Source: an uncultured Cohaesibacter sp. (GTDB lineage Bacteria; Pseudomonadota; Alphaproteobacteria; Rhizobiales; Cohaesibacteraceae). Taken from it: a stretch of 64,000 nt of DNA. The notes beneath the pieces are model-generated. The model did not search any database, was not told the origin of the DNA, and saw only the letters and a program-made list of their open reading frames with translations. The stretch covers positions 1,617,001-1,681,000 of the forward strand of contig NZ_OY782764.1 of NCBI RefSeq assembly GCF_963678225.1, in the 5' to 3' direction. This document shows, piece after piece, positions 1,036 to 22,154 of this stretch (within the stretch, counting starts at the first letter, position 1; every line of letters begins with the position of its first letter). Made by a program: the position numbers and the translations under genes.

Positions 1036-3273
1036 TTAGAGAAACGGTTTGGCCCGTTCCATCAGATCGTCCAAATCCGGTTCAGCCGGATTGCGAGGCT
1101 TGCCCGGATGGATGATGCTGACCTGACAGCCTTCTGCAGCTTCCACCAATTGGCGATAGGTGCCAGCGTCGGGATCGGCGATGAAGGCCTGCATATTTTC
1201 GTTATAGCCAAATAACTGGTCATTGATCTGGCGGCACTCGTTGCAGGTCGTGCAACGGGACGTTTCGATCCATGGCATGTCATCAAGCACTTCTGCCGCA
1301 GCGCTGTCCTCTTCTTCAGACGCGACCTGAGGCTCAGCTGTTGGCTGCGCTGCCTCGGCGACCGGCTGGGCCGGCTGGGCAGCTGTAGGGCTTGCGGCGT
1401 CACTGGAAAGCTCGGCTAGCAGTGCCTCCCGTTTGCGCCGTTCCTCGGCCAGTTGGGCCAACACATAGGAATTGTTGATGCCAGCCAGTTCCTGCAAACG
1501 GTTCCATGCATCCTTGCACCGACGGGCTGCGGCAACAATCTTGTCATCAACCACAACACGCATCAACGCGTCTTGTCGATCCACACCCTGCACATAGGCC
1601 CGCTTGATGGCATCGCTGCCCCCTGATGTTTCGAGCCATTCCTCGAACGGCACCATATCGCTGCTCCAGCCCTTGCGCTCGATCGCTTCGCAGAAACGGT
1701 GATAGCGGGTATCAGCCAGAGCAAAATCCCCGTAGGTAAAGCTCACAGCCTCTTCCTTGCGCACTCCTGTAGGGTCTTCATAGCGAAGAGTGTGCTCGGG
1801 CCAGTCTTTCTCCATCTGCGGATTAGCCGACAGATCAAACCGGCTGGCCAGATCATTGCCAGCGGACGGATCGTAGGAGAAATTCGGGAACAGGCGTGCT
1901 TCGGTTGCCGCTGCGGCCAGAATATAGGCAGGCACGCCCGGAACAGTTTGGGTTGCGCCCGAATAGATGCTGAACATGGCTGGTCCACCATAATGCATGG
2001 CGCGGACCATATCATCCTGCATACGGGTCATATGAGCGCTGGATCCCTGAACCACGAAGGCATTGTTGATGCCCATGGCCATGGAAGCAAGCCGTGCCGT
2101 ACCCGCACCAAAGGAGTTGCGTGGCGGTTCCGGAGAGGTGGGCCCGAGAATGTCATCCACCTGGATCATCACCTTGATAGGCAAGCCGCATGCAAGCGCT
2201 TCATAGGCACGGGAAATTTCGGAGGACTCCGTAACCCCGTCGCGCAAGAAGATCATGGCGGGTGGCAGGAAGGCCATCTGCTCTTCGGTTAGATCACTTT
2301 CATCGAAATTGGCAAAGACGGCATCATGCAGGTCGGGAACATATTTGTTCTCAACTTCCATTTCGGCAATCGCCAAAGCCTTGGTGAACTCGATGACGCT
2401 CGGCAGGCGATCCCGATAGGCATCCAACGCTTCGGTACAGCTCTGGAAGACATAGCTGTAGCACACCGCCTTGTCCGGATAGCTATAGGTTGCACGCCCC
2501 GGCCCGAAGAATGCCTGAGTCTGGAGCACCTGCAATACATGCTTGATGCGTTCCACTCTGTCGGCGGGCAGCCGGTCTTCAGGGCGTACACGATGCAGGA
2601 TATTGGACAAGACACCAAAGTCGATGGATTTGTCGCCATCCAGCCCCATGGACTTGGCCAGCGCTTCAGGGCTGTGGGCCTCATCGGACTTGATATGATC
2701 CGATTTCAGGATGTCATTGAGCCGCAGCACCAGACGGTCGACCTTGTAGCGGAACTTGCGGGCCCGAGCCAGATGCATGGATTGCCAGACATGGGCCAGA
2801 ACCTTGCCCGGCGTTGCCTCTGAGCAGCCGATGACACGGCCCTCAAGAGTGACGGCCTGGCGTGCCCGATCCAGATTCTGATCAAGCGGGCCAAAGGCCG
2901 ATTGACCACTCTCGGCCACCAGTTCTGCCTCGCTGATACGCCACAGCTCGGAGAGCTTTTCTTCCGCGCCGGCAGCCACCTTTTCGCGCATGCGTTGTTC
3001 AAGACGCAGAACCTGCTGGCGCAATTCTTCCCCGTCCGGTCCTTGTGGGGCCACCAGCCGCAAGGCTTCGTCCACGATGTGGCATAGGGGCATGAGTGGT
3101 TTTTCCACCTCTTCTCCTCCTTCTATGAGGACAAGAGGATAGTCATAGCGCAAGCTATCAAGCGCATTATAGCGGGCAAAGAGCGCCGGACGGAGAGCCG
3201 TCAATGCGGCTTCCTCCATGAAAGCGTCAGTGCCCTGACCCTGAGGGGCCGTTGAGATTTGAGCCACCTGCAT
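1036..3273 (-). CDS. PFOR C-terminal-like protein with degenerate TPP site and C-terminal ferredoxin domain
   Basis: A 745-residue protein, last gene of the 2-oxoacid oxidoreductase operon, 6 bp after korB. From about residue 320 it aligns by eye with the C-terminal half of the giant PFOR at 13709-18688: FANFDESDLTEEQMAFLPP here against FNNFEWHNFSDAERDLLPT there, then LPIKVMIQ against TPVKVMVL. The TPP/Mg motif, which in the giant PFOR starts GDGAAYDIG, is replaced by RDGVTESSE, and the downstream Asn-containing segment by MIQVDDILG. It therefore probably cannot bind TPP. An Ala/Pro/Glu-rich linker (about 610-660) leads to a C-terminal iron-sulfur-like domain with CTTCNEC near residue 671 and a further Cys near 713. 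The N-terminal 300 residues are largely helical and unassigned. Likely role: structural or electron-transfer subunit working with KorAB. Confidence 0.75.
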   Translation of the reverse strand: MQVAQISTAPQGQGTDAFMEEAALTALRPALFARYNALDSLRYDYPLVLIEGGEEVEKPLMPLCHIVDEALRLVAPQGPDGEELRQQVLRLEQRMREKVAAGAEEKLSELWRISEAELVAESGQSAFGPLDQNLDRARQAVTLEGRVIGCSEATPGKVLAHVWQSMHLARARKFRYKVDRLVLRLNDILKSDHIKSDEAHSPEALAKSMGLDGDKSIDFGVLSNILHRVRPEDRLPADRVERIKHVLQVLQTQAFFGPGRATYSYPDKAVCYSYVFQSCTEALDAYRDRLPSVIEFTKALAIAEMEVENKYVPDLHDAVFANFDESDLTEEQMAFLPPAMIFLRDGVTESSEISRAYEALACGLPIKVMIQVDDILGPTSPEPPRNSFGAGTARLASMAMGINNAFVVQGSSAHMTRMQDDMVRAMHYGGPAMFSIYSGATQTVPGVPAYILAAAATEARLFPNFSYDPSAGNDLASRFDLSANPQMEKDWPEHTLRYEDPTGVRKEEAVSFTYGDFALADTRYHRFCEAIERKGWSSDMVPFEEWLETSGGSDAIKRAYVQGVDRQDALMRVVVDDKIVAAARRCKDAWNRLQELAGINNSYVLAQLAEERRKREALLAELSSDAASPTAAQPAQPVAEAAQPTAEPQVASEEEDSAAAEVLDDMPWIETSRCTTCNECRQINDQLFGYNENMQAFIADPDAGTYRQLVEAAEGCQVSIIHPGKPRNPAEPDLDDLMERAKPFL

Positions 3274-3279
3274 GATCGG

Positions 3280-4272
3280 TCACTCCCCGTTTGAGGTCGC
3301 TTGCTGGCCTTCGGGCCAGATGCCGACCTTGTCGAATTCTTCGTTGAGAACAGTTTCCACCAGCTGTGGCGTGCTCGGGCGTTTGCCTTTGCGCAATTCG
3401 TCATAGCAGGGCACGTGCGGATTGGAATAAAGCACGCCCACCGGGATCTCCTCATCCAGCATGGCAAGAGCCTGTGCCCGATTGAGGTCAAGCGGATCGT
3501 GGGTCTCCTGGTTCTTGTAGATGCGGGAAAGTTCCGGCTTCAGTCGCAGACCATCGGCATGGGTCAACATCCGCACGCGCAGAGGATCCTGAACTGCAGC
3601 GTCAAAATGATGGTTCATGAAGTTCGGGCAACGTTGCAGGATGCGGATAAAGGAAAAGCCCTTGTGGTGATAAGCTTTGGAGAGCACATCATAGAGCAGC
3701 TCGGGTATCCAGTCCGGCACCTGCGCCACGAAGGACACGTTGGAGATGCCCAGCGTGACACTCAACGGGTTGAGCGGATTGAGCGTGACCCCGAACGGGG
3801 TGGTGTTGCTCTTCAAGCCCTTTGGAGATGTCGGCGAGGCCTGCTTCTTGGTGAGGCCATAGACATTGTTGTCATGCAGCAGCATGGTCATGTTCATGTT
3901 GTAGCGCACCGCATGCAGCCAGTGGGCCGCCCCGATGGAGCAACAGTCGCCATCGCCGGTGGTGACGAAAACGCTGAGATCCGGCCGGCGGATCTTGATA
4001 CCTTCGGCAATCGGCAAGGCACGCCCATGGATGCCATGGAAGCCATAGGCATTCATATAATGCGGCAGGCGAGAGGCACAGCCGATGCCTGAGACACACA
4101 CGGTCTTTTCTGGCGGAAGCTGTTCATCCCGACACAAACGCTGCATGGCGGTGAGAATGGCGTTATCGCCGCAGCCGGTGCACCAGCGTGGGGTGATATC
4201 GCTTTGATAGTCTGCAATCTGATAGTCGGTTTGCACCATCTGCATCAGACATTGGCTCATGGAAGCGGTCAT
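3280..4272 (-). CDS. korB: 2-oxoacid:ferredoxin oxidoreductase, beta subunit (TPP-binding)
   Basis: The 330-residue TPP-binding subunit of a two-subunit 2-oxoacid:ferredoxin oxidoreductase, which decarboxylates a 2-oxoacid with CoA and reduces ferredoxin. Near the N-terminus it has RWCTGCGDNAIL, and the TPP/Mg site is TTGDGDCCSIG followed by LLHDNNVYGLTKKQASPTSPKG. All are classic KorB/PorB features. It starts 1 nt after the korA stop codon with a purine-rich site (GGGAGG) inside the korA end, implying translational coupling. 2-Oxoglutarate and pyruvate enzymes are hard to separate by eye; the KorA partner with fused gamma domain slightly favours 2-oxoglutarate. Confidence 0.9.
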   Translation of the reverse strand: MTASMSQCLMQMVQTDYQIADYQSDITPRWCTGCGDNAILTAMQRLCRDEQLPPEKTVCVSGIGCASRLPHYMNAYGFHGIHGRALPIAEGIKIRRPDLSVFVTTGDGDCCSIGAAHWLHAVRYNMNMTMLLHDNNVYGLTKKQASPTSPKGLKSNTTPFGVTLNPLNPLSVTLGISNVSFVAQVPDWIPELLYDVLSKAYHHKGFSFIRILQRCPNFMNHHFDAAVQDPLRVRMLTHADGLRLKPELSRIYKNQETHDPLDLNRAQALAMLDEEIPVGVLYSNPHVPCYDELRKGKRPSTPQLVETVLNEEFDKVGIWPEGQQATSNGE

Positions 4273-4273
4273 C

Positions 4274-6223
4274 TCATAGCCCTCCCGCCGTTTGTTTTTT
4301 GTCGTCGAGCTTGGCCATTGCGGCCTCTATGATTTCCGCAGGCTTGAGCGGTTGGCCGCGGGCATTGCCCCAGCAATCCACATCCACCAGCCAGCGCGAG
4401 CGCAGAAGCATGGCCAGATGGGAATAGCGTCGGTTTGACGGATCGATCAGCGGATCACTCTCTGGGTCATTCCAGTTATTCTCGATGGTCATGACCTTGC
4501 CGAAACGTTTCATGACAGCATCGATGCCAGCGGCCATCGGCTGGATGAATTTCAGATGCAATGAGGAGACCTTGAGACCCTGTTCCCGCATGATCTTCAC
4601 GGCTTCCTCGATGGCGCCGCGTGTACTGCCCCAGCCGATGAGTAGCAGATCGCCTTCCTCATCGCCATAGACGGGTGCCAGACGCAAAGTCTTCTGCAAT
4701 GCAGCCAGTTTGCGGCTGCGGTTCAAAAGGCCCTCCTCGTTGATCTGAGGGTCATAGGCCACGTGGCTGTCCCGATCATGGGCAAGGCCCGTGAGGCAAT
4801 GCATGCCGTTTGGCTGGCCGGGAATGAAGCGGGTCGCAATGCCTGTGCGTTCGTCCCAGTCATAGGGATGGGCATCTTCCGGCACCGCAGATTGGTTGAC
4901 CGGAGGGGCCAGCCACTCGGCGTTGAATTCAGGTCTGTCAAAAGGCTGTTGCGCGGTCGAAAGAGCCGCATCCGAGAGGATGACCACGACCATGTTGAAG
5001 GTCTCGGCGATCTTGCGTGCGGTGATGACCGAATAGAAGCAGTCCTCGATGGAATCCACCGCCATGACCACCTTGGGCGCATCCCCATGACTGCCGAACA
5101 TGGCGGACATCATGTCGCCCTGCTCGACCTTGGTTGGCAGGCCGGTGGAAGGTCCACCGCGCTGAACATCAATGACAACCAGCGGAATTTCGGTCATCAC
5201 GGCAAGACCGATGGCTTCCTGCTTGAGCGAGAGGCCCGGGCCGGAGGTGATGGTCACCGCGCATTTGCCAGCATAGGAAGCCCCGATGGCGAAGGTCGCC
5301 GCCGAGATTTCATCCTCTGCCTGATGCACCACGCAGCCGACCTTCTCGAAGATGGTCGAGAGATAGTGCGAAGCCGAGGTGGCTGGCGTGATCGGATACA
5401 TCGAGCAGACTTCCATGCCCGAGGCCACAACCCCGAGCGCCAGCGCCGCATTGCCGTTGGTCACGATTTGTGGCTTCACAACCGGCGCCGCAGGGATCAT
5501 GTAGCGCATGGAGAGATTCTCTGCCGCCCAGGCCTGTCCGGCCGCCAGAAGTTCGAGGTTGGCATCGACGATCTTCTGGTCCTTCTTGGCAAAGGTCAGC
5601 CGCACCTGTGCTTCGGCCAGTGCCGTATCCAGACTGTAGATCGTGCAGAGAATGCCCAGCACGAACATATTCTTGCCCTTGGTCGGATCGGGCACATATT
5701 TTTGACATTCCGTCTGCATCGGAATCTCGAACAGCTTGTAGCCCCTTGCGCGGACTTCGGCGGTCACCTTTTCATAATTCTCGGCAACGGCAGGGTCCTT
5801 GTCGCGTTTCCACATTTCTTCGATGAGAATGGTGGCTCCGGGCTTGATCTCGTTGGCGTTCAGGCGGCTTAGAAGCACCTGCTCGTTAAAGGCGATCACG
5901 AGATCGGCCTTGTCACCCACATTGGTGACCTTGTGCGCGGCCATGCGCACCCTGTTGCCGCTGGCGCCCGCGATGGAGCGGTGAGGGGGCTGGATCTCGG
6001 CGGGGATGATCTCCACCGTCCAGATTCCGTGCCCGGATCGGGCGGCGATCGACGCAAGGGACTGGCCGCATCTTTGCGCGCCTTCCCCCGAGTCACTTAC
6101 GATTTCAACAATATGTTCCTGAATGACTTCGACAGGTCCACTTGCTGGGGACTTCTTCAATGCGGTCCTTTCCTCGCTGGGAGGAGCATCGTGAGAAGAA
6201 GCCTGCATGCCATATTCCGTCAT
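4274..6223 (-). CDS. korA: 2-oxoacid:acceptor oxidoreductase, alpha subunit with fused gamma domain
   Basis: The alpha subunit of the 2-oxoacid:ferredoxin oxidoreductase, about 649 residues. An N-terminal gamma domain comes first (GEGAQRCGQSLASIAARSG, then ADLVIAFNEQVLLSRL). It is followed by the pyrimidine-binding domain (NAALALGVVASGMEVCSMYP, ITPATSASHYLS, ITSGPGLSLKQEAIGLA) and a C-terminal domain (LLIGWGSTRGAIEEAV). This fused gamma-alpha layout is common in bacterial KorA. I start it at the ATG at 6223, preceded by GGAG at good spacing. The longer frame from 6268 would overlap the upstream gene. It is the fourth gene of the operon from 8718 and pairs with korB. Confidence 0.9.
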   Translation of the reverse strand: MTEYGMQASSHDAPPSEERTALKKSPASGPVEVIQEHIVEIVSDSGEGAQRCGQSLASIAARSGHGIWTVEIIPAEIQPPHRSIAGASGNRVRMAAHKVTNVGDKADLVIAFNEQVLLSRLNANEIKPGATILIEEMWKRDKDPAVAENYEKVTAEVRARGYKLFEIPMQTECQKYVPDPTKGKNMFVLGILCTIYSLDTALAEAQVRLTFAKKDQKIVDANLELLAAGQAWAAENLSMRYMIPAAPVVKPQIVTNGNAALALGVVASGMEVCSMYPITPATSASHYLSTIFEKVGCVVHQAEDEISAATFAIGASYAGKCAVTITSGPGLSLKQEAIGLAVMTEIPLVVIDVQRGGPSTGLPTKVEQGDMMSAMFGSHGDAPKVVMAVDSIEDCFYSVITARKIAETFNMVVVILSDAALSTAQQPFDRPEFNAEWLAPPVNQSAVPEDAHPYDWDERTGIATRFIPGQPNGMHCLTGLAHDRDSHVAYDPQINEEGLLNRSRKLAALQKTLRLAPVYGDEEGDLLLIGWGSTRGAIEEAVKIMREQGLKVSSLHLKFIQPMAAGIDAVMKRFGKVMTIENNWNDPESDPLIDPSNRRYSHLAMLLRSRWLVDVDCWGNARGQPLKPAEIIEAAMAKLDDKKQTAGGL

Positions 6224-6240
6224 GGTTTTGGCTCCGGCAG

Positions 6241-7749
6241 CTAAATTTGTCTTATTCTGGTAAAGCAATGTTCAGCAAGGTCGATGCCGAACAGACTGTT
6301 CTCGAAGTCGGATGTCTCCGGCTCGTAAATGACGTTGGTGTCTCTGAGGCCCAGATAGCGGCGGATGCTGTCAGCCGCCTTGCGCCCTGCGCCCATTGCC
6401 TTGATCACGGTCGCCGCTCCGGTGACGATGTCTCCCCCGGCATAGACACCGGCAAGGGAGGTTGAAAGATCGTCGTCGGTGTCGATATAACCCCATTTGT
6501 TGAGGCCGATCGACGAGGTCTGGCCGAGGATCGGGTTGGGCGAGGTGCCGATGGCATAGACCACCGTATCCGCTTCGAAGTCGAATTCGCTGCCCTCAAC
6601 CGCTACCGGACGCCTGCGCCCGGAGCTATCGGGTTCACCCAACTCCATCTGCACGCAACGGATGCCGCGCACATTGTTGTCGGCGTCGCCAAGAATTTCG
6701 ACCGGGTTGGTCAGCCAGTGGAACTCGATGCCTTCTTCCTGTGCGTGATGAAGCTCTTCCTTGCGGGCAGGGCACTCGATTTCGCTGCGTCGGTAGATGC
6801 AATGCACCTGCTCGGCACCAAGCCGTAGGGAAACACGCATCGCGTCCATGGCCGTATTGCCCGAGCCGATCACGGCCACGCGCTTGCCAAGGCCCAGCGG
6901 AGTGTCGAATTTGGGGAAGTCCCCTGCATGCATCAGATTGCAGCGGGTCAGCAACTCGTTGGCGGAAAGGACGCCGTTGAGATTTTCGCCCGGAATGTCC
7001 ATGAAGTGGGGGGTACCGGCTCCAACGCCGATAAAGACTGCATCATAGCCCATGTCATCGAGCATCTGATCGATGGTGAACAGGCGGCCCACCAGTGTAT
7101 TGCACTGGATATCGACGCCCAGCGCCTTCAGATTGGCGATCTCGGCGTCCACCACGCTCTTGGGCAGGCGGAATTCTGGGATACCGTAGCGCAAGACGCC
7201 ACCGGGCACATGAAAGGCCTCATAAATGGTAACGGCGCATCCGGCCTTGGCCAGATCCGCCGCACAAGCCATTCCGGCTGGTCCAGATCCTACGATGGCA
7301 ACCCGGAAGCGGTTGGGTTCAATCTGTGCTGATTTCTGCCACCCCTCCTTGATAGCCATGTCGCCAAGGAAGCGTTCAAGTCGACCGATCGCAACCGGTT
7401 CAAGGCCCGTGCCTGCACCGACAGCGCAAACCCCTTCGCACTGATCCTCCTGTGGGCAGACCCGGCCGCACACGGCGGGAAGCTGGGTCGCATCGGTCAT
7501 ATGCTCATAGGCGCCACGGAAATCCTTTTCCAGCATCTTGGAAATGAATCCGGGAATGTCGATCTTGACCGGGCATCCTTCGATGCAGGCCGGTTGCGGA
7601 CACATCAGGCAGCGTTCACATTCCAGAAGAGCATTTTCAAGATCAAAGCCCAGTGCCACTTCATCAAAGTTTCTGGCGCGGATCTCCGGCTCCTGAACCG
7701 GCATGTCTGCCCGTTGTTGCGGAATGGATCGAATTGTCTTGCGAGCCAT
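6241..7749 (-). CDS. NfnB/GltD-like FAD- and NADP-dependent oxidoreductase
   Basis: A 502-residue flavoprotein of the glutamate synthase small subunit (GltD) family, here best read as the large subunit of an NfnAB-type NADH-dependent ferredoxin:NADP+ oxidoreductase. It has an N-terminal iron-sulfur domain with Cys44, 47, 50, 55 and 59 (CERCLMCPQPACIEGCPVK) and a second Cys group around 94-108. An FAD site (GSGPAG, 154-159) and a second dinucleotide fold (VIGSGNTAMDAMR, near 290) follow, with the C-terminal FAD motif YAGGDIVTGAATVI. No large GltB subunit is nearby. The gene follows its partner directly (stop at 7750, start 7749) and precedes korA, so ferredoxin reduced by KorAB is the likely electron source or sink. 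Confidence 0.88.
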   Translation of the reverse strand: MARKTIRSIPQQRADMPVQEPEIRARNFDEVALGFDLENALLECERCLMCPQPACIEGCPVKIDIPGFISKMLEKDFRGAYEHMTDATQLPAVCGRVCPQEDQCEGVCAVGAGTGLEPVAIGRLERFLGDMAIKEGWQKSAQIEPNRFRVAIVGSGPAGMACAADLAKAGCAVTIYEAFHVPGGVLRYGIPEFRLPKSVVDAEIANLKALGVDIQCNTLVGRLFTIDQMLDDMGYDAVFIGVGAGTPHFMDIPGENLNGVLSANELLTRCNLMHAGDFPKFDTPLGLGKRVAVIGSGNTAMDAMRVSLRLGAEQVHCIYRRSEIECPARKEELHHAQEEGIEFHWLTNPVEILGDADNNVRGIRCVQMELGEPDSSGRRRPVAVEGSEFDFEADTVVYAIGTSPNPILGQTSSIGLNKWGYIDTDDDLSTSLAGVYAGGDIVTGAATVIKAMGAGRKAADSIRRYLGLRDTNVIYEPETSDFENSLFGIDLAEHCFTRIRQI

Positions 7750-8718
7750 TTACTTGCCTCCCTCAATGGGTGCTGCATCCGGCGCAAGGGCCAGGCGGCG
7801 GCAACTATCGGAATAGCGCTCCATCGCTGCGGCCTCTTCAGGGCGGTAGCGTTGCAGTCGGGTGAAGAGATCGTCAAAGTCGACCTGATGGCCATCAAAA
7901 TCGGGCCCGTCCACGCAGGCGAACTTGATCGTCTCTCCTACTTTCACGCGGCAGCCGCCGCACATGCCGGTGCCGTCCACCATGATCGGGTTGAGGCTCA
8001 CCATTGTCTTGATGCCGTAGGGGCGTGTGGTTTCCGTGCAGGCGCGCATCATGACCGGAGGACCAATGGCGACTACTTCGTCTACGTCTGGATTCGCTTT
8101 GATTGCCGCTTCAATGCCTTGGGTGACAAGGCCGTGTATGCCCGCTGAGCCATCGTCTGTGCAGATAATGAAATCATCACAAATGGCGCGAAATTTCTCT
8201 TCCCAGAACATAAGGTTGCTGGAGCGGAAGCCCAGAACCCCGATCACATGGGCGCCAGCTTCCTTGAAGGCCCGTGCCTGCGGGTAGATAGGCGCGATAC
8301 CTAGCCCGCCGCCCACACAAATGACCTTTTTGGTTTTCGATGAAATGTCACTGGGAATACCAAGAGGGCCGAGCATGGCGTAGATCTCACGACCGGGTCT
8401 GCAGAGCAACTGCATCTCCCTTGTGGATTTGCCCACGGCCTGCACGACAAGTGTGATGGTTCCCTTTTCCCTGTCGAAATCCGCAATGGTCAGCGGAATA
8501 CGCTCGCCCAGCTCATGCAGCATCACGATGACAAACTGGCCGGGTTTGGCGGCCTTTGCCATGACTGGATGTTCGATTTCGATAAGGAATGTTGACTTTG
8601 AAAAATCGGTACGCGTCAGGATTGGAAAGGATGCCGTAACACCTTTCCCGGATCCGTTCTGCCTATTTGCGACAGACAAATCCTCCCCGCGACCGCTGGC
8701 GACCCCGCGATCGGACAT
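7750..8718 (-). CDS. NfnA/PyrK-like FAD/NAD-binding iron-sulfur oxidoreductase subunit
   Basis: A 322-residue protein of the dihydroorotate dehydrogenase electron-transfer (PyrK) and NfnA family, first gene of the operon. It shows the flavin-binding region (KPGQFVIVMLHELGERIPL), the NAD-binding fold (VICVGGGLGIAPIYPQARAF) and a C-terminal [2Fe-2S] motif (GTGMCGGCRVKVG, then FACVDGPDFDGHQVDFDDL). Beside an NfnB-like gene, this points to an electron-bifurcating or ferredoxin:NADP+ transhydrogenase pair rather than pyrimidine synthesis. It has an N-terminal extension of about 35 residues before the conserved fold, so translation may start further in, for instance near residue 50. An FNR/FixK-type box lies about 110 bp upstream. 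Confidence 0.88.
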   Translation of the reverse strand: MSDRGVASGRGEDLSVANRQNGSGKGVTASFPILTRTDFSKSTFLIEIEHPVMAKAAKPGQFVIVMLHELGERIPLTIADFDREKGTITLVVQAVGKSTREMQLLCRPGREIYAMLGPLGIPSDISSKTKKVICVGGGLGIAPIYPQARAFKEAGAHVIGVLGFRSSNLMFWEEKFRAICDDFIICTDDGSAGIHGLVTQGIEAAIKANPDVDEVVAIGPPVMMRACTETTRPYGIKTMVSLNPIMVDGTGMCGGCRVKVGETIKFACVDGPDFDGHQVDFDDLFTRLQRYRPEEAAAMERYSDSCRRLALAPDAAPIEGGK

Positions 8719-8823
8719 GAATTTCCTCCCCTTGCTGCGGAATTTGCCAACTAGATTGCACAGGGTGCAATAATCGGAACAAATACAACAGCTTCGACGC
8801 TACGCCCATGGAAGGGGGAAACA

Positions 8824-8837
8824 TTGACACCAATCAA
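8824..8837. promoter_or_regulatory. FNR/FixK-type box upstream of the KOR-Nfn operon
   Basis: TTGACACCAATCAA matches the FNR/FixK consensus TTGAT-N4-ATCAA with one change. It lies about 106-119 bp upstream of the first gene (start 8718). The operon product is an oxygen-sensitive ferredoxin enzyme, so low-oxygen induction makes sense. Binding itself is inferred. Confidence 0.6.
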
Positions 8838-8899
8838 AACGGCAGGGATCAGCCGCTAGCTACGACTAAGGTTTTAGAGGACTGGTGAAAAGATGACGC

Positions 8900-8934
8900 A
8901 AAAAAAAGAAGCGTAGGCCATAAGCCCACGCTTC
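8900..8934 (-). terminator. Rho-independent terminator of the decarboxylase operon
   Basis: An 11-bp stem (8908-8918 with 8924-8934, 5-base loop) is followed on the minus strand by eight T residues (A-run at 8900-8907). The one non-Watson-Crick position is G-U on the minus-strand RNA but A-C on the plus strand. It therefore works in the direction of the gene ending at 8964. Confidence 0.88.
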
Positions 8935-8963
8935 CTTAATCTTAGATTCAGTTTGACTGAATG

Positions 8964-10115: not shown

Positions 10116-10132
10116 GAGAAGGATCTCCCTCC

Positions 10133-10537
10133 TTATGAAAGGGTTACAAGAACTTGACCCTCGGTCACGGTAGCACCGGCTGCCACATTGACCGCGGTAA
10201 CTGTACCATCAGATGGAGCACTGATGTTCGTGTTCATCTTCATGGCTTCAAGGACAACCAGAGTGTCGCCAGCTGATACTTTCTGACCAACAGAAACGTC
10301 TACGCTGATGACAGTCCCTGCGAGTGGGCTAGGCACTGCGCCATCACCAGCTGGGGCAGCAGGAGCTGCAGCAGGAGCCGGAGCGGCTGGGGCCGGAGCG
10401 GCAGGAGCAGGAGCTGCTGCTGCAGGGGCTGGAGCTGCTGGTTTCGCAGCCGGAGCCGGGGCAGCATTGTCCATATCTTCGTCTTCCACCGTTACATCGT
10501 AGGTGATGCCCTGTACGGTGATCCGCAAGCGTTTCAT
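10133..10537 (-). CDS. mmdC: Biotin carrier subunit of the Na+-pumping decarboxylase
   Basis: A 134-residue biotinyl carrier protein. The short N-terminal segment ([19 protein letters not shown]) leads into an Ala/Pro linker of about 40 residues, then a biotin domain with EAMKMN, where Lys100 would carry biotin. The Ala-Pro linker is typical of mobile carrier subunits such as MmdC and GcdC. The gene overlaps by one base the upstream gamma-like subunit and precedes mmdB by 17 bp, consistent with one complex being made in order. Confidence 0.95.
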
Positions 10538-10947: not shown

Positions 10948-10963
10948 CAAGATAATCCTTTGC

Positions 10964-13708: not shown

Positions 13709-16700
13709 ATGAACGAAAAACTTCCAAAAACGCCGGCGTATCCCGGAAATTCAACGGTAATTAACGGTAACGGCGCCGTGGCCCAGGTAATGGGACAGGT
13801 GTGCGGTGGGGTCATCGGTTATCCGATTACGCCTTCTACCGAGATTGCCGAAATCTATGAAGCTTTCAGAGCTGGCGGCGGACTCAATGTCTGGGGTCGT
13901 CATCCCTTCTTCTTCGAACCTGAAGGGGAACATTCGGCTCAGTCTGGCGCACTTGGCGCCGCGCTTACGGGCGGACAATATGTGTCCAACGCTTCGTCCT
14001 CCCAGGGCGTGCTTTATGGCCTTGAATCGCATTATGTCACCGTCGGCAAGAAAGTCGGCGGTTTTGTCATGCAGGTTGCGGCTCGCTCCGTTTCCCGCCA
14101 TTCACTGAACGTGATGGCTGGGCATGACGACATTTACGCCTTGCTGCCATCCGGTTACACCATCCTGTTTGGGTCCAACCCGCAGGAAGCTGCCGACCTT
14201 GCCGCGATCTCCTATAAGGTCAGCGCAATGTCGATGATTCCGGTTGCCAACGGCATGGACGGCTTCGTGACGTCTCACATGATGAGCGAAGTGATGATGC
14301 CGGAAGAAGACTTGCTGCGAGAATTCATCGGAGATCCATCCGAGCGCATCATGTGCCCGACCGTCGCACAGGAAATGCTCTATGGCGCCAAGGGGCGCGT
14401 CTTCCAGCTCAAACGCTATCTGGGCCGTCATAGCTCGGATATGGAACAGGACGCCTACGCCAAACTCGTTGCCTTCCTTGATGACAATGCCGATGCCGTG
14501 GAAGAAGACAATGCTGGCGAGATGGTTGCCAAGACCCTCGATATGCTGCCGGCAGAGCTGCACAAGCAGTGGAGCCGCCAGTGGACCAATGCCTTCCAGA
14601 AAGGCACGCGCCAGCGCGTTCCTGCTCAGGTCGATATCAACAATCCGGGCCTGACGGGTGGTGTTCAGAACCAGCCAGACTTCCAGGCAGGTGCTGTTGA
14701 CCATCGCACCCACTTTGTGCGCGACGTTGCCCGCTTCGTACGCGAAGCCATGGATGAATATTCGGCTCTGACCGGTCGCAGCTATGCTCCGGTTAAATGC
14801 TTCGAATGCGAAGATGCCGAAACCGTTCTGGTCGGCCTTGGGTCAGTCACCGATGATGCCGAAGCCGTTGCCGCTTACTTGCGCCGTCAGGGCAAGAAGG
14901 TTGGTGTGGTTTCCATCAAGATGCTGCAGCCATTCCCTGATGCGGAATTCGTGGAAGCTGTCAAAGGCAAGAAAGCCGTCACCATTCTTGAGCGTTCCGA
15001 CAACACCGCCCTGACTGCCTTCGTCAAGGAAGCCTTGATGAAAGCCATGGAAAATGGTGCTGGTGAACGCTATCCAGGCGTTCCTGCGCTCAAGGAACTG
15101 CCAAAACTGACGACGGCCATCTTTGGTTTGGGTGCACATGACCTGCAGCCACGCCATCTGGTCGCAGCCTACGAAAACATGGAAGGTGCTTGCCAGCCAT
15201 TTGTTTACCTTGGTAGTCAGTTCTTCTCCAAGGATGCAAGCCCGATCATGACCGAGCTTCAGGCCAAGCTGAAAGAGGCTTATCCTGAAACCGAACTGAT
15301 GGCGCTGGAAACCAAGCCGAACCCGAGCCTTTTGCCAGATGGTGCCCTGCGCATCCGCTTCCATTCGGTTGGCGGGTACGGCACGATTGCCACCGGCAAG
15401 CTGCTCACGGACATTTTGGCCAACGCCCTGCATCTCTATTCCAAGTCCGCACCGAAATACGGTTCGGAAAAATCGGGCGCGCCAACCAACTACTATATTA
15501 CGCTTTCTCCAGAGCCGGTGCTGATCACCAACGCCGACCTGGAAGATGTGGAAGTGGTTGTCTCGCCAGACCATAAGGTCTTCGCTCACAGCAATCCGCT
15601 GCGTGGCCTTGTTGAAGGCGGCACCTTCATTCTGCAGTCCAATCTTTCCGCCCTTGAAGTCTGGAAAGAACTGCCTGCAGCCATGCGCAAGACCATTCGC
15701 GACCGGAAGATCAAATTCCTGGTGGTTGACGGCTTTGCCATTGCCAAGAAACATGCTCCTGTTGCCGCTCTTCAGACCCGCATGATGGGTATCGCCTTCA
15801 TCGGCGCCGTCTGCGGCCATGTGGAACGCGTCACCGAAGGGGCTGATCGTGAAGCTGTGATCGAAAAGATCCGCAGCCAGATCAGCTACAAATTCGGCAC
15901 CAAGGGCGAAGCTGTTGTCGAAGGCAACATGGCGGTTATCCGCGATGGCGTCGAGGAAACGGCTGTTGTCGATTATTCGGCTCCTGAATTTGTCGAAGTG
16001 GACGCCGCTGGCGATCCTGTTCCTGAATTCAGCCCGACCATTTCTTCCAACATGTGCCGTATTGCTTCGGAATCTTCTCCGGAAGGTCTGTTCGATACCG
16101 CCTATTATGAAGAAACGGTCGCAGCGCCATTCCGCGCTGGTGCCATCGGCGAAGCGCCGGTTCTGCCGGGCTCAGGCATGTTCATGCCAGCCGGGTCTGC
16201 TGCTGCCAAGGACAAGGGCCTCTTCCGTCGTGAAGTACCGGTCTTCGATCCTGAAAAATGCACAGGCTGCCTGGATTGCTCCATGGTCTGCCCGGATGCT
16301 GCCATTCCGCCAAGTGTCTTCGATATCGAAGCTCTGCTGATGGCTGCTGCCAAAGACATCGACATGCCGGAAAAACAGCGCGAAGTCATTCGTGAATATG
16401 TCCGCACGATCGGTGAGACGGTTCGCCGTAAATATAATGCACTGGATGACGCTCCGAGCTTTGCCAAACTGGTGGCTGAAGCGGTCAACGAGCTTTATGT
16501 TGAAAGCGCCGTCGTCAAGGGCAATCTGGAACGCATCGTGGAAGCCGTGTCGGTTCTGCCTGTTGCCAAGACCCGCCCATTCTTCGACTCCATGGAAGCT
16601 GAACACACCGGTCAGGGTGGTCTGTTTGCCGTGGCAGTTGACCCTTGGAAATGCACCGGCTGTCTGGAATGCGTGGACATCTGTGGTCCGGGCGCTCTGG

Positions 16701-18688
16701 TGGCCGCCGATCAGGACGCTGGCTTGCTGCATGATCTGCAGTCCAAGTTCAACTTCCTTTCCAAAACACCGAACACGCCAGCCCGCTTTGTTGAACCGGC
16801 CTTTGAGGACGACAACGAAATCAAGCGCATGATGCTGGATCGCGCCAACTACTATTCCACCACCGGTGGTCACGGTGCTTGTCGCGGCTGTGGCGAGGTT
16901 ACGGCCATTCGTCAGGTTGTTTCCGCAACCCATGCGATCCACGACCGCCGTCAGAAAGCTCATGTGCGTGAGTTGGAAGAACTGGTCAACGGCCTGACCC
17001 TCAAGCTTGAAGAAGTCAAAGGCGATAGCGAACGTGAAGCTCGTATTTCCGGCGCCCTCAAAGTGCTCGAAAAACGCCTCTTCATGCTCGAAGGTGGCCC
17101 GACCGGCAATGGTCAGTCTCCGTTGGTTGTTGCCAACGCGACCGGCTGTAGCTCGGTTTACGCTTCGACCTTCCCGTTCAACCCTTACAACGACCCATGG
17201 GTCAACAGCCTGTTCCATGATGGACCGGCCGTCATCAAGGGTATCTTTGAAGGCACCACTGCCAATGCGGCAGTTGACTTCAAGGCCATGCGTCTTGCCA
17301 AACTCGAATTGGCCAATGCCTATGATCCGGTAACGGATGAAGCATTCTTCAACAATTTCGAATGGCACAATTTCTCCGACGCTGAACGTGACCTGCTGCC
17401 AACCTTCATGAACATCTCCGGTGACGGTGCTGCTTATGATATCGGCTTCGGTGCTCTGTCTCGCTTGCTGGCAAGTAACACGCCGGTCAAGGTGATGGTG
17501 CTTAACTCCGGCGTTTACTCCAACACCGGTGGTCAGGCTTCCACGGCCTCCCTGTCCGGTCAGGACAGTGACTTGGCCCGCTTCGGCAAGGCCAACCCTG
17601 GCAAGCTGGAAGACCGCAAGGAACTGGGCCTGATTGCAAGCTTCCACCCGAATGTTTTCGTGGTGCAGAGTGCAACCTCCTTCCCGGGTCACTTCCTCAA
17701 GAATGTGATGGCCTATCTGAAGCATTCCTCTTCACCAGCACTGCTTGACGTTTATACGCCATGTCAGGGTGAACACGGGATTGCCGATGACGCAGCCAAC
17801 CGACGCTCGAAACTGGCTGTTGAAGCCCGTGTCAGCCCGCTCTTCGTGCATGATCCCAAAGCAGGGAAAACCCTTGCTGAACGGTTCGACATTGAAGGCA
17901 ACCCGGCCAAGGATCAGGATTGGGCCATGCAGACCATCTCCTATATGGAAGATGGCCAGCTCAAGCTCATGGATCTGCCGCTTACTCCGGCTGACTATGC
18001 TTACGACGAAGTTCGCTTCAAGAAGCAGTTCCGCCCGATCAAGGGTGAAGTGGACGCTGTGCCGCTGCATGAATTTATCGACATGCCTGCAGTGGAGCGT
18101 GGCCGCAAGGTTCCATACATCCTCAAGACCAATGCCAAACAGGAACTGGTCAAACTGGAAGTTGGTGCTATGATCGTGCATCTGGTTGAAGAACGTCGTC
18201 AGAACTGGCGCACGCTTCAGCATCTGGCCGGTCAAACCGCTGCCAAACTCGATGCTGCGCACAGCAAAGAGCTGGCTGCAATGGAAGCAAAATACAAGGA
18301 AGCTCTGGAATCCCGCGAGCTTTCAATGGACAGCATCGCAGCCGGCATGGCTGAAATGGCTTCCATGTCTGCTTCCCCGGCTGTTCTGGGCCTTGGTGGA
18401 TCGGCTTCCGCTGCAACGGCCAATGGAGCATCCGATGCAGCACCTGCTGCCGGAGGAGCCAGCCTGCCGCACATTCATGAAGAGGACGTATCGCTCTGCA
18501 CCAACTGCAAAGCCTGCTATCAGGATGTTCCTGAGCTCTTCGAACTGACCAAAGTTGTCGAGAATGGGTCTGTCATGGAAGTGGCACACACCATCCCCGG
18601 TGCTCTGGAGCAGGTCGAAGTCACTCCGGACCTGAAGTCCCGCATCATGAAAGTGGCGGCAAAGTGCAACGCGGAGATCGTAAGATGA
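13709..18688 (+). CDS. Giant one-chain pyruvate/2-oxoacid:ferredoxin oxidoreductase
   Basis: An iron-sulfur TPP enzyme of about 1659 residues that would oxidise pyruvate (or a related 2-oxoacid) to acyl-CoA and reduce ferredoxin. Order: pyrimidine domain (GGVIGYPITPSTEIAEIYEAF), domain II, gamma domain from about 535 (IRFHSVGGYGTIATGKLLTD), 2x[4Fe-4S] domain (CTGCLDCSMVC near 850, CTGCLECVDIC near 980), TPP domain (CRGCGE near 1057, GDGAAYDIGFGA near 1236, VLNSGVYSNTGGQAS), a helical tail, and an extra terminal ferredoxin-like domain (CTNCKAC near 1597, last Cys near the end). Classical NifJ is about 1170-1200 residues, so roughly 450 residues are extra. ATG 13709 follows GGTGGAGAAT; the longer GTG start at 13700 is not needed. 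It overlaps the next gene by 4 bp. Confidence 0.92.
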   Translation: MNEKLPKTPAYPGNSTVINGNGAVAQVMGQVCGGVIGYPITPSTEIAEIYEAFRAGGGLNVWGRHPFFFEPEGEHSAQSGALGAALTGGQYVSNASSSQGVLYGLESHYVTVGKKVGGFVMQVAARSVSRHSLNVMAGHDDIYALLPSGYTILFGSNPQEAADLAAISYKVSAMSMIPVANGMDGFVTSHMMSEVMMPEEDLLREFIGDPSERIMCPTVAQEMLYGAKGRVFQLKRYLGRHSSDMEQDAYAKLVAFLDDNADAVEEDNAGEMVAKTLDMLPAELHKQWSRQWTNAFQKGTRQRVPAQVDINNPGLTGGVQNQPDFQAGAVDHRTHFVRDVARFVREAMDEYSALTGRSYAPVKCFECEDAETVLVGLGSVTDDAEAVAAYLRRQGKKVGVVSIKMLQPFPDAEFVEAVKGKKAVTILERSDNTALTAFVKEALMKAMENGAGERYPGVPALKELPKLTTAIFGLGAHDLQPRHLVAAYENMEGACQPFVYLGSQFFSKDASPIMTELQAKLKEAYPETELMALETKPNPSLLPDGALRIRFHSVGGYGTIATGKLLTDILANALHLYSKSAPKYGSEKSGAPTNYYITLSPEPVLITNADLEDVEVVVSPDHKVFAHSNPLRGLVEGGTFILQSNLSALEVWKELPAAMRKTIRDRKIKFLVVDGFAIAKKHAPVAALQTRMMGIAFIGAVCGHVERVTEGADREAVIEKIRSQISYKFGTKGEAVVEGNMAVIRDGVEETAVVDYSAPEFVEVDAAGDPVPEFSPTISSNMCRIASESSPEGLFDTAYYEETVAAPFRAGAIGEAPVLPGSGMFMPAGSAAAKDKGLFRREVPVFDPEKCTGCLDCSMVCPDAAIPPSVFDIEALLMAAAKDIDMPEKQREVIREYVRTIGETVRRKYNALDDAPSFAKLVAEAVNELYVESAVVKGNLERIVEAVSVLPVAKTRPFFDSMEAEHTGQGGLFAVAVDPWKCTGCLECVDICGPGALVAADQDAGLLHDLQSKFNFLSKTPNTPARFVEPAFEDDNEIKRMMLDRANYYSTTGGHGACRGCGEVTAIRQVVSATHAIHDRRQKAHVRELEELVNGLTLKLEEVKGDSEREARISGALKVLEKRLFMLEGGPTGNGQSPLVVANATGCSSVYASTFPFNPYNDPWVNSLFHDGPAVIKGIFEGTTANAAVDFKAMRLAKLELANAYDPVTDEAFFNNFEWHNFSDAERDLLPTFMNISGDGAAYDIGFGALSRLLASNTPVKVMVLNSGVYSNTGGQASTASLSGQDSDLARFGKANPGKLEDRKELGLIASFHPNVFVVQSATSFPGHFLKNVMAYLKHSSSPALLDVYTPCQGEHGIADDAANRRSKLAVEARVSPLFVHDPKAGKTLAERFDIEGNPAKDQDWAMQTISYMEDGQLKLMDLPLTPADYAYDEVRFKKQFRPIKGEVDAVPLHEFIDMPAVERGRKVPYILKTNAKQELVKLEVGAMIVHLVEERRQNWRTLQHLAGQTAAKLDAAHSKELAAMEAKYKEALESRELSMDSIAAGMAEMASMSASPAVLGLGGSASAATANGASDAAPAAGGASLPHIHEEDVSLCTNCKACYQDVPELFELTKVVENGSVMEVAHTIPGALEQVEVTPDLKSRIMKVAAKCNAEIVR

Positions 18689-21450
18689 CCGTTGATACTG
18701 CAGTAACGCAGGACGCTCTGTTTGATCATCAAATGGATGTTCTGAAAAAGCATCTCGCAGCGGACCCCCGGTCCCTGCGGAATGTCTTCATCGCGGATGG
18801 AGCCCAGGCCATGGCCTGGGAATTCCAGAAGGACGAGTTGGGCGAGCCCTTCATCAAGACTCTCTGGGGCCTTCTGCTCAAGAATGATGACATGAGCACG
18901 CTGATCCAGCGTTTCATCTGGAGCTTGCCGCTCCGTTTCAAACGCAAGTTCATCAAGGCGCTCGATGCCTACATGTCCGACCGCTATCCCATGTTCAAGG
19001 GCCTTTCTGAAGGCTGGCCCGAAAACAGCTACATTCCGCCCTATATCCGCACGCCGGAAGCGCGGTCAGCTGACTTCGAGTTGGTGAACCAGGGCTATCT
19101 GGGCTATCAGTCCCTCGGCTATTCCTTGCGGGAAGTCGAAATGATCGTCTGGCTGGAAGTGCTTCGCGACAAACAGTGCGAAGACAAGCCTTGCGAACTG
19201 GGCCAGATCATCCAGCGCACCAAGGACGAAGAAGCCAAGAAGATTGGCGGCTGCCCGGTCAAGATCCATATCCCGGAAATGATCGATCTGCTCGCCAAGG
19301 GCAAGATCCGTCAGGCGCTGGAATTGATCGAAAGCTGCAACCCGCTACCAAACGTCACCGGCCGCGTCTGTCCGCAGGAGCATCAGTGTCAGGGTGTCTG
19401 TAAGCATACCAACCGTCCGATCGAAATCGGTCAGCTGGAATGGTTCCTGCCCGAGCACGAGAAAGCTGCCAATCCGGATCAGCTTGCGCGCTTCGCTGGC
19501 ATTGTCAGCCCTTGGCAGAAAGCCGAAAAGCCTCCAATCGCGGTGGTCGGGTCCGGCCCGTCGGGCCTCATCAACGCCTATTTGCTGGCCGTTGAAGGCT
19601 TCCCGGTAACGGTCTTTGAGGCTTTCCACGAACTGGGCGGCGTGTTGCGCTACGGTATTCCCGAATTCCGTCTGCCAAACTCGCTGATCGATGACGTGGT
19701 TGCCAAGATCGACGCTCTGGGCGGTCGCTTCGTCAAGAACTTCGTGGTCGGCAAGTCCGCAACCCTTGAAGATCTGAAAGCCGCTGGCTTCTGGAAAATC
19801 TTCGTCGGGTCGGGTGCTGGCCTGCCAACCTTCATGAATGTTCCGGGCGAAGAATTGCTCGGCGTCATGTCGGCCAACGAGTTCCTGACCCGCGTCAACC
19901 TGATGCGTGGTCGTGATCCGGCCTATGAAACGCCGCTTCCGGACGTCAAGGACAAGAATATCCTCGTGATTGGTGGTGGTAACACCGCGATGGACGCAGC
20001 CCGCACGGCAAAACGCCTTGGCGGCAACGTGACCATCGTTTATCGCCGTACCCAGTCTGAGATGCCTGCCCGTGTTGAAGAACTCGAGCATGCACTTGAA
20101 GAGGGCATTGAACTGGCTGAACTGCGCGGACCAAAAGAGTTCGTCGGCGATCATCACACCCATTTCGTCACCCACGCTGTTGTGGATGTGAACGAGTTGG
20201 GTGAACCGGATGCCTCTGGCCGCCGTCGTCCACGTCCAACCGGTGAAGTCATCGAAATGCCGGCCGATCTGGTCATCATGGCGCTTGGCAACAAGTCCAA
20301 TCCGATCATCCCGTCGTCTGAACCCAAGCTTGAAGTCAGCAAATGGGGCACGATCAATGTTGGCAAAGATAGCCAACAAACGTCGATTGATGACATCTAT
20401 ACCGGTGGTGACGCCGCTCGTGGTGGGTCCACGGCGATCCTTGCTGCCGGTGATGGTCAGGCTGCTGCCCGTCAAATCCTCGGTGCCATTGATCTGGTGT
20501 CTGATGAGATTGCCGACCGGGTCAAGAGAGCTGATCACTTCACCAGCCTTGGTCTGGCTGAACATACCGTTCTCAAACACACGGATCTGGCTGCTGGCAT
20601 TGTTGAAATGACAATTCGCGCACCAGTGATTGCCCAGTCCGCACGGGCTGGCCAGTTTGTCCGCGTGCTGGCAACCGATGATGGCGAGCTCATCCCGCTG
20701 ACCCTTGCCGACTGGAACAAGGAAAATGGCACCATCGATCTGGTCATTCAGGGCATGGGTACCTCGACCAAGATGATGAACAAGATGAGCGAAGGCGACT
20801 TCTTCGCCGGTATCGCAGGCCCGCTTGGGGAACCAAGCGACGTCAAGAAATTCGATCCGGAAAAAGAAACCGTTGTCTTCACAGCCGGTGGCGTGGGTCT
20901 GCCCGCGATTTATCCGATTGCCAAGGCGCATCTGGAAACCGGCAACCATGTCACCATGATCATCGGCTTCCGTTCGGCAGACCATCTGTTCTGGACGGGC
21001 GAGGACGAACGCATGGGGCTGTTGAAGGCCAAGTATGGCGACATGCTTGATGTCATCTATTGTTCCAACGATGGCACCTTCGGCATCAAGGGCTTTGTCA
21101 CCAATCCACTTGAAGACATGCTCAAGGACGACAAGACCTCCAAGGGCCGCAAGATTGCGGAAGTCGTCTCTGTCGGTCCTCCGATGATGATGCGTGCTGT
21201 CAGTGATCTGACCAAGCCATATGAAGTGCCGACGGTTGTCAGCCTCAACTCCATCATGGTGGATGCCACCGGCATGTGCGGCGCCTGCATGGTGCCAGTG
21301 CTCAAGGATGGCAAGACCCTGCGTCAGCATGCTTGCATTGACGGTCCGGAATTCGACGCCCATACCGTCGAATGGGACAAGTTCCTGCCACGCTTTGGCC
21401 AGTTCAAAGTGCAGGAAGTCCGCAGCATGGAAAAACACAAGCTCAACTGA
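18685..21450 (+). CDS. One-chain NfnB-NfnA fusion flavoprotein with extra N-terminal domain
   Basis: A protein of about 921 residues fusing both halves of an Nfn-type NAD(P)H:ferredoxin oxidoreductase. Residues 1-160 are an extra domain I do not recognise (WEFQKDELGEPFIKTLWGLL). Then come a GltD-like iron-sulfur segment (GGCPVKIHIPEM, VTGRVCPQEHQCQGVC), an FAD site (VVGSGPSG near 289), a second nucleotide site (VIGGGNTAMDAART) and, from about 626, an NfnA/PyrK half ending with GMCGACMVP and HACIDGPEFDAHTVEW. The first Cys group is altered from the usual CxxCxxCxxxxC form (only KQCEDKPCELG remains). ATG at 18685 overlaps the PFOR stop (ATGA) with GGAG upstream. The longer GTG start at 18664 is rejected. 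A terminator follows. Confidence 0.9.
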   Translation: MTVDTAVTQDALFDHQMDVLKKHLAADPRSLRNVFIADGAQAMAWEFQKDELGEPFIKTLWGLLLKNDDMSTLIQRFIWSLPLRFKRKFIKALDAYMSDRYPMFKGLSEGWPENSYIPPYIRTPEARSADFELVNQGYLGYQSLGYSLREVEMIVWLEVLRDKQCEDKPCELGQIIQRTKDEEAKKIGGCPVKIHIPEMIDLLAKGKIRQALELIESCNPLPNVTGRVCPQEHQCQGVCKHTNRPIEIGQLEWFLPEHEKAANPDQLARFAGIVSPWQKAEKPPIAVVGSGPSGLINAYLLAVEGFPVTVFEAFHELGGVLRYGIPEFRLPNSLIDDVVAKIDALGGRFVKNFVVGKSATLEDLKAAGFWKIFVGSGAGLPTFMNVPGEELLGVMSANEFLTRVNLMRGRDPAYETPLPDVKDKNILVIGGGNTAMDAARTAKRLGGNVTIVYRRTQSEMPARVEELEHALEEGIELAELRGPKEFVGDHHTHFVTHAVVDVNELGEPDASGRRRPRPTGEVIEMPADLVIMALGNKSNPIIPSSEPKLEVSKWGTINVGKDSQQTSIDDIYTGGDAARGGSTAILAAGDGQAAARQILGAIDLVSDEIADRVKRADHFTSLGLAEHTVLKHTDLAAGIVEMTIRAPVIAQSARAGQFVRVLATDDGELIPLTLADWNKENGTIDLVIQGMGTSTKMMNKMSEGDFFAGIAGPLGEPSDVKKFDPEKETVVFTAGGVGLPAIYPIAKAHLETGNHVTMIIGFRSADHLFWTGEDERMGLLKAKYGDMLDVIYCSNDGTFGIKGFVTNPLEDMLKDDKTSKGRKIAEVVSVGPPMMMRAVSDLTKPYEVPTVVSLNSIMVDATGMCGACMVPVLKDGKTLRQHACIDGPEFDAHTVEWDKFLPRFGQFKVQEVRSMEKHKLN

Positions 21451-22141: not shown

Positions 22142-22154
22142 GACAGAAACCCTA

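Follow-up and report, generated by a model that had tools for sequence, protein, structure and literature searches.

Closest Described Systems and the Locus under Study

Electron hand-over from a pyruvate:ferredoxin oxidoreductase (PFOR) or a 2-oxoglutarate:ferredoxin oxidoreductase (OGOR) to NAD(P)-dependent enzymes is usually ascribed to free ferredoxin (Fd). The stretch of DNA analysed here (the window: 64,000 nucleotides, positions 1,617,001–1,681,000 of contig NZ_OY782764.1) comes from a 4.94-Mb genome close to Cohaesibacter and bears two gene sets that each join a 2-oxoacid oxidoreductase to an Nfn-type flavoprotein. On the plus strand, a giant PFOR-like protein is followed by a fused Nfn, and on the minus strand, a five-gene set ends with a 745-aa relative of the PFOR beta part. 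On balance, these would appear to be two independent systems for 2-oxoacid dehydrogenation, both equipped with an Nfn-type flavoprotein of their own, and a tethered single-cluster Fd probably carries the electrons in each. The component parts are of known kinds.

According to PMC5020499, the single-chain PFORs of Desulfovibrio africanus and Moorella thermoacetica have the same order of domains as the giant, namely alpha, gamma, two internal Fer4 clusters, and the thiamine pyrophosphate (TPP)/beta domain. The giant differs from them in being ~430–490 aa longer, owing to an insert between the clusters and a C-terminal single-cluster Fd. The KorAB enzyme of the five-gene set resembles the two-subunit enzymes (OGOR of Magnetococcus marinus, 6n2n; the enzyme of Sulfolobus tokodaii, PMC5020499), which combine a gamma–alpha chain with a one-cluster beta; the same source describes the Sulfolobus enzymes as having one cluster and no internal Fd domain. 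Unlike a two-subunit OGOR, the Kor operon of the window adds NfnA, NfnB, and a dead, Fd-bearing 745-aa protein. The 2-oxoglutarate:NADP+ oxidoreductase of Azoarcus evansii and the phenylglyoxylate:NAD+ oxidoreductase reportedly also join a 2-oxoacid oxidoreductase to a dedicated NAD(P)-binding flavoprotein; neither is known to comprise an Nfn pair, a giant chain, or a dead PFOR-tail subunit. No paper devoted to either enzyme was found in the open-licence literature, and the NCBIfam Pad models match below their cut-offs.

As for fused flavoproteins, Liang, Huang and Wang (2019; PMC6405883) described pattern C Nfn, in which the NfnB part comes first and the NfnA part is C-terminal, the chain being ~200 aa longer than in pattern B. 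It is known from Actinobacteria, Alpha-, and Gammaproteobacteria, and the fused patterns are termed uncharacterised there. The window's fused Nfn fits pattern C. The passages of that paper on pattern C mention neither a giant PFOR partner nor an Asp at a cluster site; the legend of its Figure 2 names PFOR among the nfn neighbours in some microbes, and the plain nfn–PFOR adjacency is thus already published. AadN of Rhodopseudomonas palustris (PMC9973337) is a fused Nfn homolog for low-potential electron delivery, and the genus also has the giant PFOR. However, AadN is classed as pattern B, lies near aromatic degradation genes, and in the passages that treat it is not shown beside a PFOR.

The Giant PFOR-Like Protein and the Fused Nfn

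The plus-strand set consists of the following elements:

13709–18688, plus strand: giant PFOR-like protein, 1659 aa (Pfam/NCBIfam profiles, motif scan)
18470–18685, plus strand: C-terminal single-cluster Fd tail of the giant (C1597, C1600, C1603, C1653; PF13459), following a linker
18685–21450, plus strand: fused Nfn, 921 aa, NfnB-type N-terminal and NfnA-type C-terminal parts, pattern C (NF009415)

The open reading frames (ORFs), coordinates, strands, and domain families of both sets are as given in the initial annotation. The giant has the domain order PF01855, PF17147, PF01558, Fer4, PF02775, corresponding to alpha (domains I and II), gamma (III), a double Fer4, and TPP/beta, that is, the composition of a single-chain PFOR. 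Its internal Fer4 clusters (C851–861 and C982–992) are separated by a long insert, the TPP/beta domain bears GDG at 1238 and NTGG at 1272, and C1058, C1061, C1147, and C1352 stand at the places of the proximal cluster, whose ligands we take them to be.

The fused Nfn, whose ATG overlaps the stop codon of the giant (ATGA, 18685–18688), scores 1676.6 bits against NF009415 (cut-off 1519) and has the full-length NfnB–NfnA order with the N-terminal extension of pattern C. Its AlphaFold model (mean predicted local distance difference test score, pLDDT, 82.5) matches P. furiosus NfnI (chains L and S). In all 68 rows of the family alignment, an Asp (D169, counted from the ORF start at 18664) replaces one expected cluster Cys; as judged by alignment to the window's ordinary NfnB, the other expected ligands are equally invariant (68/68), and the D169 loop carries an insert. 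One 4Fe-4S Cys set and three 2Fe-2S Cys are thus conserved, while the second 4Fe-4S set consists of three Cys and an Asp, in a region where the model is unsure. Loss of one entire cluster is ruled out, three Cys being kept and the fourth position being Asp. The replaced Cys is presumably a distal-cluster ligand, as in the structures of dihydropyrimidine dehydrogenase (DPD) and Nfn, and the Asp may itself serve as a ligand. Such an altered site would be compatible with an altered partner, though it is no proof of one.

Linkage of the two genes was followed at several scales. In a phylum sample of 398 genomes, where no more than two candidates were scored in any genome at first, the giant (at least 55% identity) is present in nine, namely the host and eight genomes of one other genus (g98), and the fused Nfn (E 1e-120) in exactly these nine and no other; in g98 it directly follows the giant in 8/8 loci (L062–L069). 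The idea that the two belong together was thereby exposed to refutation by independent occurrence, and it stood. A class-wide sample of 385 genomes gave the giant in the host genome only (E 1e-120). A contig scan over 84,980 species confirmed 299 relatives, of which the best-scoring 80 were kept; counts of named loci refer to these 80, which by their titles belong to Alpha-, Beta-, and Gammaproteobacteria plus one Kineosporia. The nearest named loci of the giant gene are from C. marisflavi (99%) and C. haloalkalitolerans (94%).

Whether a giant possesses the Fd tail and whether an Nfn lies next to it were scored over 91 giants: the 80 named loci, the eight of g98, and L173, L174, and L175. The window's own giant was left aside, as were L170, L171, and L172 (same contigs as L134, L113, and L115), L177 (own genus), and giants of a second type described below (L060, L061, and L166), which fall under the 800-bit limit. 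Eleven of the 91 have no readable 3′ end and two (L116, L147) have at most 1500 b downstream, which leaves 78. Tail and adjacent Nfn occur together in 64 of these (in L148, the tail is present and the Nfn was located at 15130 by tblastn), both are missing in 12, and in the remaining two (L099 and L136) Nfn is present and the tail is encoded in another frame. On a tree of 85 giants (unrooted by method), the tail changes twice and the Nfn changes twice, at the same places. One clade within the tailed giants unites the tail-less ones of Siculibacillus, Consotaella, and Pleomorphomonas with L140 and L175, and L115 supplies the second case; since the tail-less rows are nested in tailed ones, loss is the natural reading. 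No Fd trace was detected in the DNA examined at the 13 tail-less loci (only 25 b downstream in L147), with controls positive in 7/7. Whole-genome searches covered the 13 genomes with a tail-less giant (G655–G665, G576, and G651; 12 were read and G651 was judged by a 1583-aa frame), and G656 alone gave a close fused Nfn, which is split between two frames on a different contig, next to where a second giant ends.

That tail and Nfn come and go together favours a hand-over from the tail to Nfn in the giant system, and to this extent the direct PFOR-to-Nfn electron transfer proposed in the initial annotation is upheld, the comparison counting two independent events. In the corresponding mechanism, a 2-oxoacid, probably pyruvate, would be oxidised at the TPP site, and the electrons would pass to the proximal cluster, then to the two internal clusters, and then to the C-terminal Fd on its linker. 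The Fd tail would dock on the distal cluster of the fused Nfn, which could exchange electrons with NADP(H) and NAD(H). In this scheme, the complex itself, the electron path, the substrate, the direction of flow, and any bifurcation are predictions.

Several loci deserve a separate mention. The Hyphomicrobiales metagenome-assembled genome (MAG) fen_921 (L115; G584/G656, contigs C79 and C209) bears two giants, one tail-less and without Nfn, the other with its end beside the two-frame fused Nfn; L094, cut within the giant, may be the remainder of this second giant. L148, from the actinobacterium Kineosporia sp. R_H_3, has a giant–Nfn pair and no nifH over the cut-off, which may reflect lateral transfer or a mixed assembly. 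In Rhodopseudomonas infernalis (L100, 18551–19369), a second NfnA-like stretch, 66% identical to the C-terminal part of the fused Nfn, lies 3 kb past the giant–Nfn pair.

The Five-Gene Set and Its Dead PFOR Half

The minus-strand set is composed as follows:

7750–8718, minus strand: NfnA-like (DHODB/FNR-type) flavoprotein, 322 aa, first gene of five (NF004862, 383 bits, cut-off 220; PF10418 2Fe-2S)
6241–7749, minus strand: NfnB/GltA-like flavoprotein, 502 aa (TIGR01316, 574.9 bits, cut-off 471.75)
4274–6268, minus strand: KorA, 664 aa, gamma and alpha in one chain (TIGR03710, 512.9 bits, cut-off 482.75)
3280–4272, minus strand: KorB, 330 aa, active-looking beta (GDG at 106; 6n2n_B, E 1.2e-50)
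1036–3273, minus strand: 745-aa pseudo-beta protein, relative of the giant's C-terminal half
1474–2382, minus strand: its degenerate TPP/beta-like domain, residues 298–600 (alignments, motif scan)
1039–1281, minus strand: its C-terminal single-cluster Fd tail (C674, C677, C680, C716; PF13370)

The NfnB-like chain has the cysteines that a pair of 4Fe-4S clusters would require (C47, C50, C55, C59, C98, C104, C108), presumably acting as ligands as in the DPD and Nfn structures. KorA, whose ORF starts with TTG so that the true start may be later, has 6n2n_A of the M. marinus OGOR as its best solved relative. KorB narrowly misses TIGR02177 (238.9 bits, cut-off 261.9) and carries GDG along with C31, C34, C65, and C215, which we take to be cluster ligands; the pair thus has the gamma–alpha chain and one-cluster TPP beta of a KorAB enzyme. 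The initial annotation regarded the five chains as a split version of the domains fused in the giant set. This holds for the two Nfn halves only (41% and 40% identity) and fails for KorA, KorB, and the 745-aa protein. KorA and KorB were rejected as split pieces of the giant, the alignments spanning only 57–83 aa at 30–33% identity (best E 1.6e-4), and a fission origin of the 745-aa protein from the window's giant was likewise discarded, its family grouping in a single clade separate from the two types of giant (SH-aLRT 99, subject to a long-branch caveat).

The 745-aa protein aligns with the window's giant (P0006) at 26% over 424 aa (E 9e-32) and better with the other type of giant (29%, E 1e-58). 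A PDB sequence search with it returned nothing at E 0.1; by fold, its model (mean pLDDT 65.7, core confident) matches 21 PDB entries at E ≤ 0.001, all of them PFOR or oxalate oxidoreductase. In its sequence, GDG has become RDG, NTGG has become PTSP, a 17-column TPP-side loop is deleted, and two of the four proximal-cluster Cys positions are kept, so that it has neither the TPP motif nor the proximal cluster of a PFOR beta. It is related to PFOR beta but, to judge by its motifs, is not a functional one. In all 12 aligned members of the family, the catalytic motifs are lost and the four tail Cys are kept, including the ortholog from G496, whose body is 25% and tail 50% identical. The degenerate TPP and proximal-cluster sites would also suit a KorAB subunit that regulates or acts as an inactive decoy and takes no part in electron transfer, but this is quite improbable given the invariance of the four tail Cys even where the body has diverged so far. 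We rather propose that KorAB, which has one cluster only, would oxidise a 2-oxoacid, probably 2-oxoglutarate, and that the 745-aa protein would serve as a scaffold supplying the separate NfnA and NfnB with the Fd that KorAB lacks.

The distribution of this set was studied in an order sample of 297 genomes, with at most three candidates scored per genome. Orthologs of the 745-aa protein are present in 13 of them: nine of 11 genomes of the host's genus (absent from G606 and G634), and G540, G630, G445, and G496, which represent four different families, the G496 ortholog being distant. The window, G469, G501, G570, G647, and G630 show the five-gene order in full; it is the same in G445, where the last gene is cut, and partial at contig ends in G540 and G496. 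G540 also has an Nfn-like pair on another contig. The giant accompanies the 745-aa ortholog in all nine genomes of the host's genus; neither a giant nor a close fused Nfn was found, within the candidate limit, in G540, G630, G445 (83% complete), or G496 (86% complete). Conversely, the other 12 order genomes with matches, all outside the genus, hold giants and gave no 745-aa ortholog. Since each was found without the other in order genomes, the five-gene set and the giant set are separable. In the contig scan, the 745-aa half of the query gave no separate locus among the best 80 of 299. Separately, a gammaproteobacterial MAG (L111, 15729–17411) encodes a KorA 55% identical to that of the window, 5 kb from a giant–Nfn pair at a contig end.

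Giants of a Second Type and Their RnfB-Like Neighbours

Another type of tailed giant, with a tail resembling that of the 745-aa protein, is found in G364, G270, and G410 and in plasmid-borne form in Persicobacter and Gemmatirosa; being below the 800-bit limit or fetched later, these giants are not among the 91. No Nfn was seen in the DNA examined around them. An RnfB-like protein lies near in 5/5, next door in four and ~6 kb off in Persicobacter, and the neighbourhoods belong to Pseudomonadota, Bacteroidota, and Gemmatimonadota. The RnfB-like proteins, with a hydrophobic N-terminus as judged by eye, are at the following places:

L060, 9101–9985: RnfB-like protein
L061, 7331–8209: RnfB-like protein
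L166, 12767–13666: RnfB-like protein
L191, 16170–17042: RnfB-like protein
L192, 4069–4878: RnfB-like protein

This suggests that the Fd tail serves different partners. It is tempting, if somewhat speculative, to regard the single-cluster Fd tail as an interchangeable plug that would connect the giant to the fused Nfn, the second giant to an RnfB-like membrane protein, and KorAB to NfnA/NfnB, and whose loss would leave the enzyme to free carriers; in the case of KorAB, the plug would sit on a dead PFOR half whose sole remaining use is that of an adaptor. If true, a pseudoenzyme would have been turned into an electron-transfer subunit.

Direct Hand-Over or a Free Ferredoxin Pool

The adjacent genes might also have a pathway and a diffusible Fd pool in common, in which case the giant's tail would be an internal relay or stabiliser without docking to Nfn. 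Free ferredoxin connects ordinary PFOR with Nfn (PMC6405883, PMC5861303), and the C-terminal arm of the D. africanus PFOR, domain VII, extends over the other subunit (PMC5020499); moreover, the second-type giants have a tail and no fused Nfn. However, tail and Nfn are jointly absent in both events while the giant was retained, and the five-gene set keeps the tail on a protein without catalytic sites, which a role as PFOR stabiliser would not explain. We therefore consider a shared pool unlikely, and direct hand-over by a tethered Fd remains our preferred reading.

A number of points weigh against this preference. The second-type giants (G364, G270, G410, Persicobacter, and Gemmatirosa) have an RnfB-like protein near them instead of a fused Nfn, so the tail is not specific to Nfn. 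The nine-genome linkage sample comprises two genera only, with two candidates at most scored per genome, and the candidate limits in the genome searches generally weaken the absences. There are only two independent events (sign test p 0.5), and either could be explained as a single deletion through both neighbouring genes; Siculibacillus, with its tail-less giant, has a different Nfn-like gene elsewhere (47% and 43%). In the models, pLDDT is 50–60 or less in the cluster loops of the fused Nfn near residues 170–200 and 230–250, and the Fd tail of the 745-aa protein has low confidence. Finally, the giant scores 387.2 bits against TIGR02176 (pyruvate:ferredoxin/flavodoxin oxidoreductase), far under the cut-off of 911.35, and for this reason it is called PFOR-like and pyruvate only its probable substrate.

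The Na+ Pump between the Sets and Other Features of the Window

Between the two sets, the following features are located:

8964–12517, minus strand: Na+-translocating acyl-CoA decarboxylase genes (MmdA-like carboxyltransferase, OAD-gamma, biotin carrier, OAD-beta), a neighbour and not part of either set
8937–8905, minus strand: terminator-like site, a 15-pair stem and then a T run (consensus match only), between the pump and the five-gene set

The two sets had been described as standing face to face; the actual layout is divergent, back to back, with both reading away from a ~5-kb stretch that contains the pump genes and ~1.2 kb without a recognised gene. The identification of the pump itself was correct, with OAD-beta, the biotin carrier, OAD-gamma, and the carboxyltransferase all recognised. 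The beta subunit falls within TIGR01109 (Na_pump_decarbB), and the carboxyltransferase scores 735.7 bits against the mmdA subfamily TIGR01117, below the cut-off of 998.8. The pump genes share the strand of the five-gene set and precede it, with a 245-bp gap to the Kor operon; across 8500–13800, nine terminator-like sites were found versus 5.9 expected by shuffling.

It had further been supposed that the pump and both sets work as a single physical system that balances NADP(H). All three do lie within 21 kb in the window and in G647 and are adjacent in L070 and L071 over the extent of these loci. On the other side, the 745-aa protein is present in four genomes that gave no giant, and 12 giant-bearing order genomes outside the genus gave no ortholog of it, as described above. 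The two sets are ~50 kb apart in G501, a pump gene is 8 kb off in G469, and G540, G630, and G445, where no giant was found, have no pump gene in the DNA examined. Of 80 giant loci, only two, both Cohaesibacter, have pump genes in the flanking DNA that was retrieved, and the terminator-like site separates the pump from the Kor operon. With these neighbourhood data and the terminator-like site, a single system including the pump was discarded; we give it hardly any credence, and the Na+ pump is a neighbour of the two sets.

Elsewhere in the window, a MarR-type regulator is divergent from an HlyD/AcrB efflux pair directly after the fused Nfn (21632–26643), as it is in G647. G+C drops to 42.8% from ~55% at 26001–28000, and a 165-aa ORF without a Pfam match follows an FlhB fragment (426–923).

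Co-Occurrence with nifH

A nifH gene over the curated cut-off was found in 29 of the 33 genomes tested that have a P0006-type giant, in one of two with the second-type giant, in none of three with the five-gene set only, and in neither of two own-genus genomes with neither set. In the order, seven of 52 sampled genera have nifH, the host's own and that of G410 (with a second-type giant) among them; Fisher's test of 29/33 against 7/52 gives p 4.5e-12, not corrected for relatedness. All six genomes of the host's genus or Cohaesibacter with a giant have nifH, and both own-genus genomes without a giant lack it. Different roles for the two sets, as put forward in the initial annotation, are therefore plausible, nifH being present in 29/33 giant genomes and, over the cut-off, in none of the three tested among the four genomes that have just the five-gene set.

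The same frequencies, in the order and within the genus, speak for the giant system as mainly a reductant hub of nitrogenase, in which pyruvate and NADPH, with Nfn working in the bifurcating direction, would charge Fd for nitrogenase. This is nevertheless somewhat doubtful: besides the uncorrected statistics, nifH over the cut-off is missing from four giant genomes, the host's own nifH is ~1.6 Mb from the window, and growth of R. palustris fix mutants on nitrogen gas is poor though the species encodes a PFOR (PMC9973337). Tail-less giants (L113, L128, L130, L134, and L137) also co-occur with nifH, and the Nfn arm is thus not required.

Implications

In the open-licence literature, no description was found of the linkage rule, of a dead Fd-carrying half, or of the third, RnfB-like wiring. 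The analysis links the giant PFOR to genomes with nifH, and the uncharacterised pattern C Nfn gains a likely partner in this giant. An Fd tether that comes and goes with its Nfn partner, along with a dead PFOR half retaining the Fd alone, would show direct wiring and open it to a clean genetic test.

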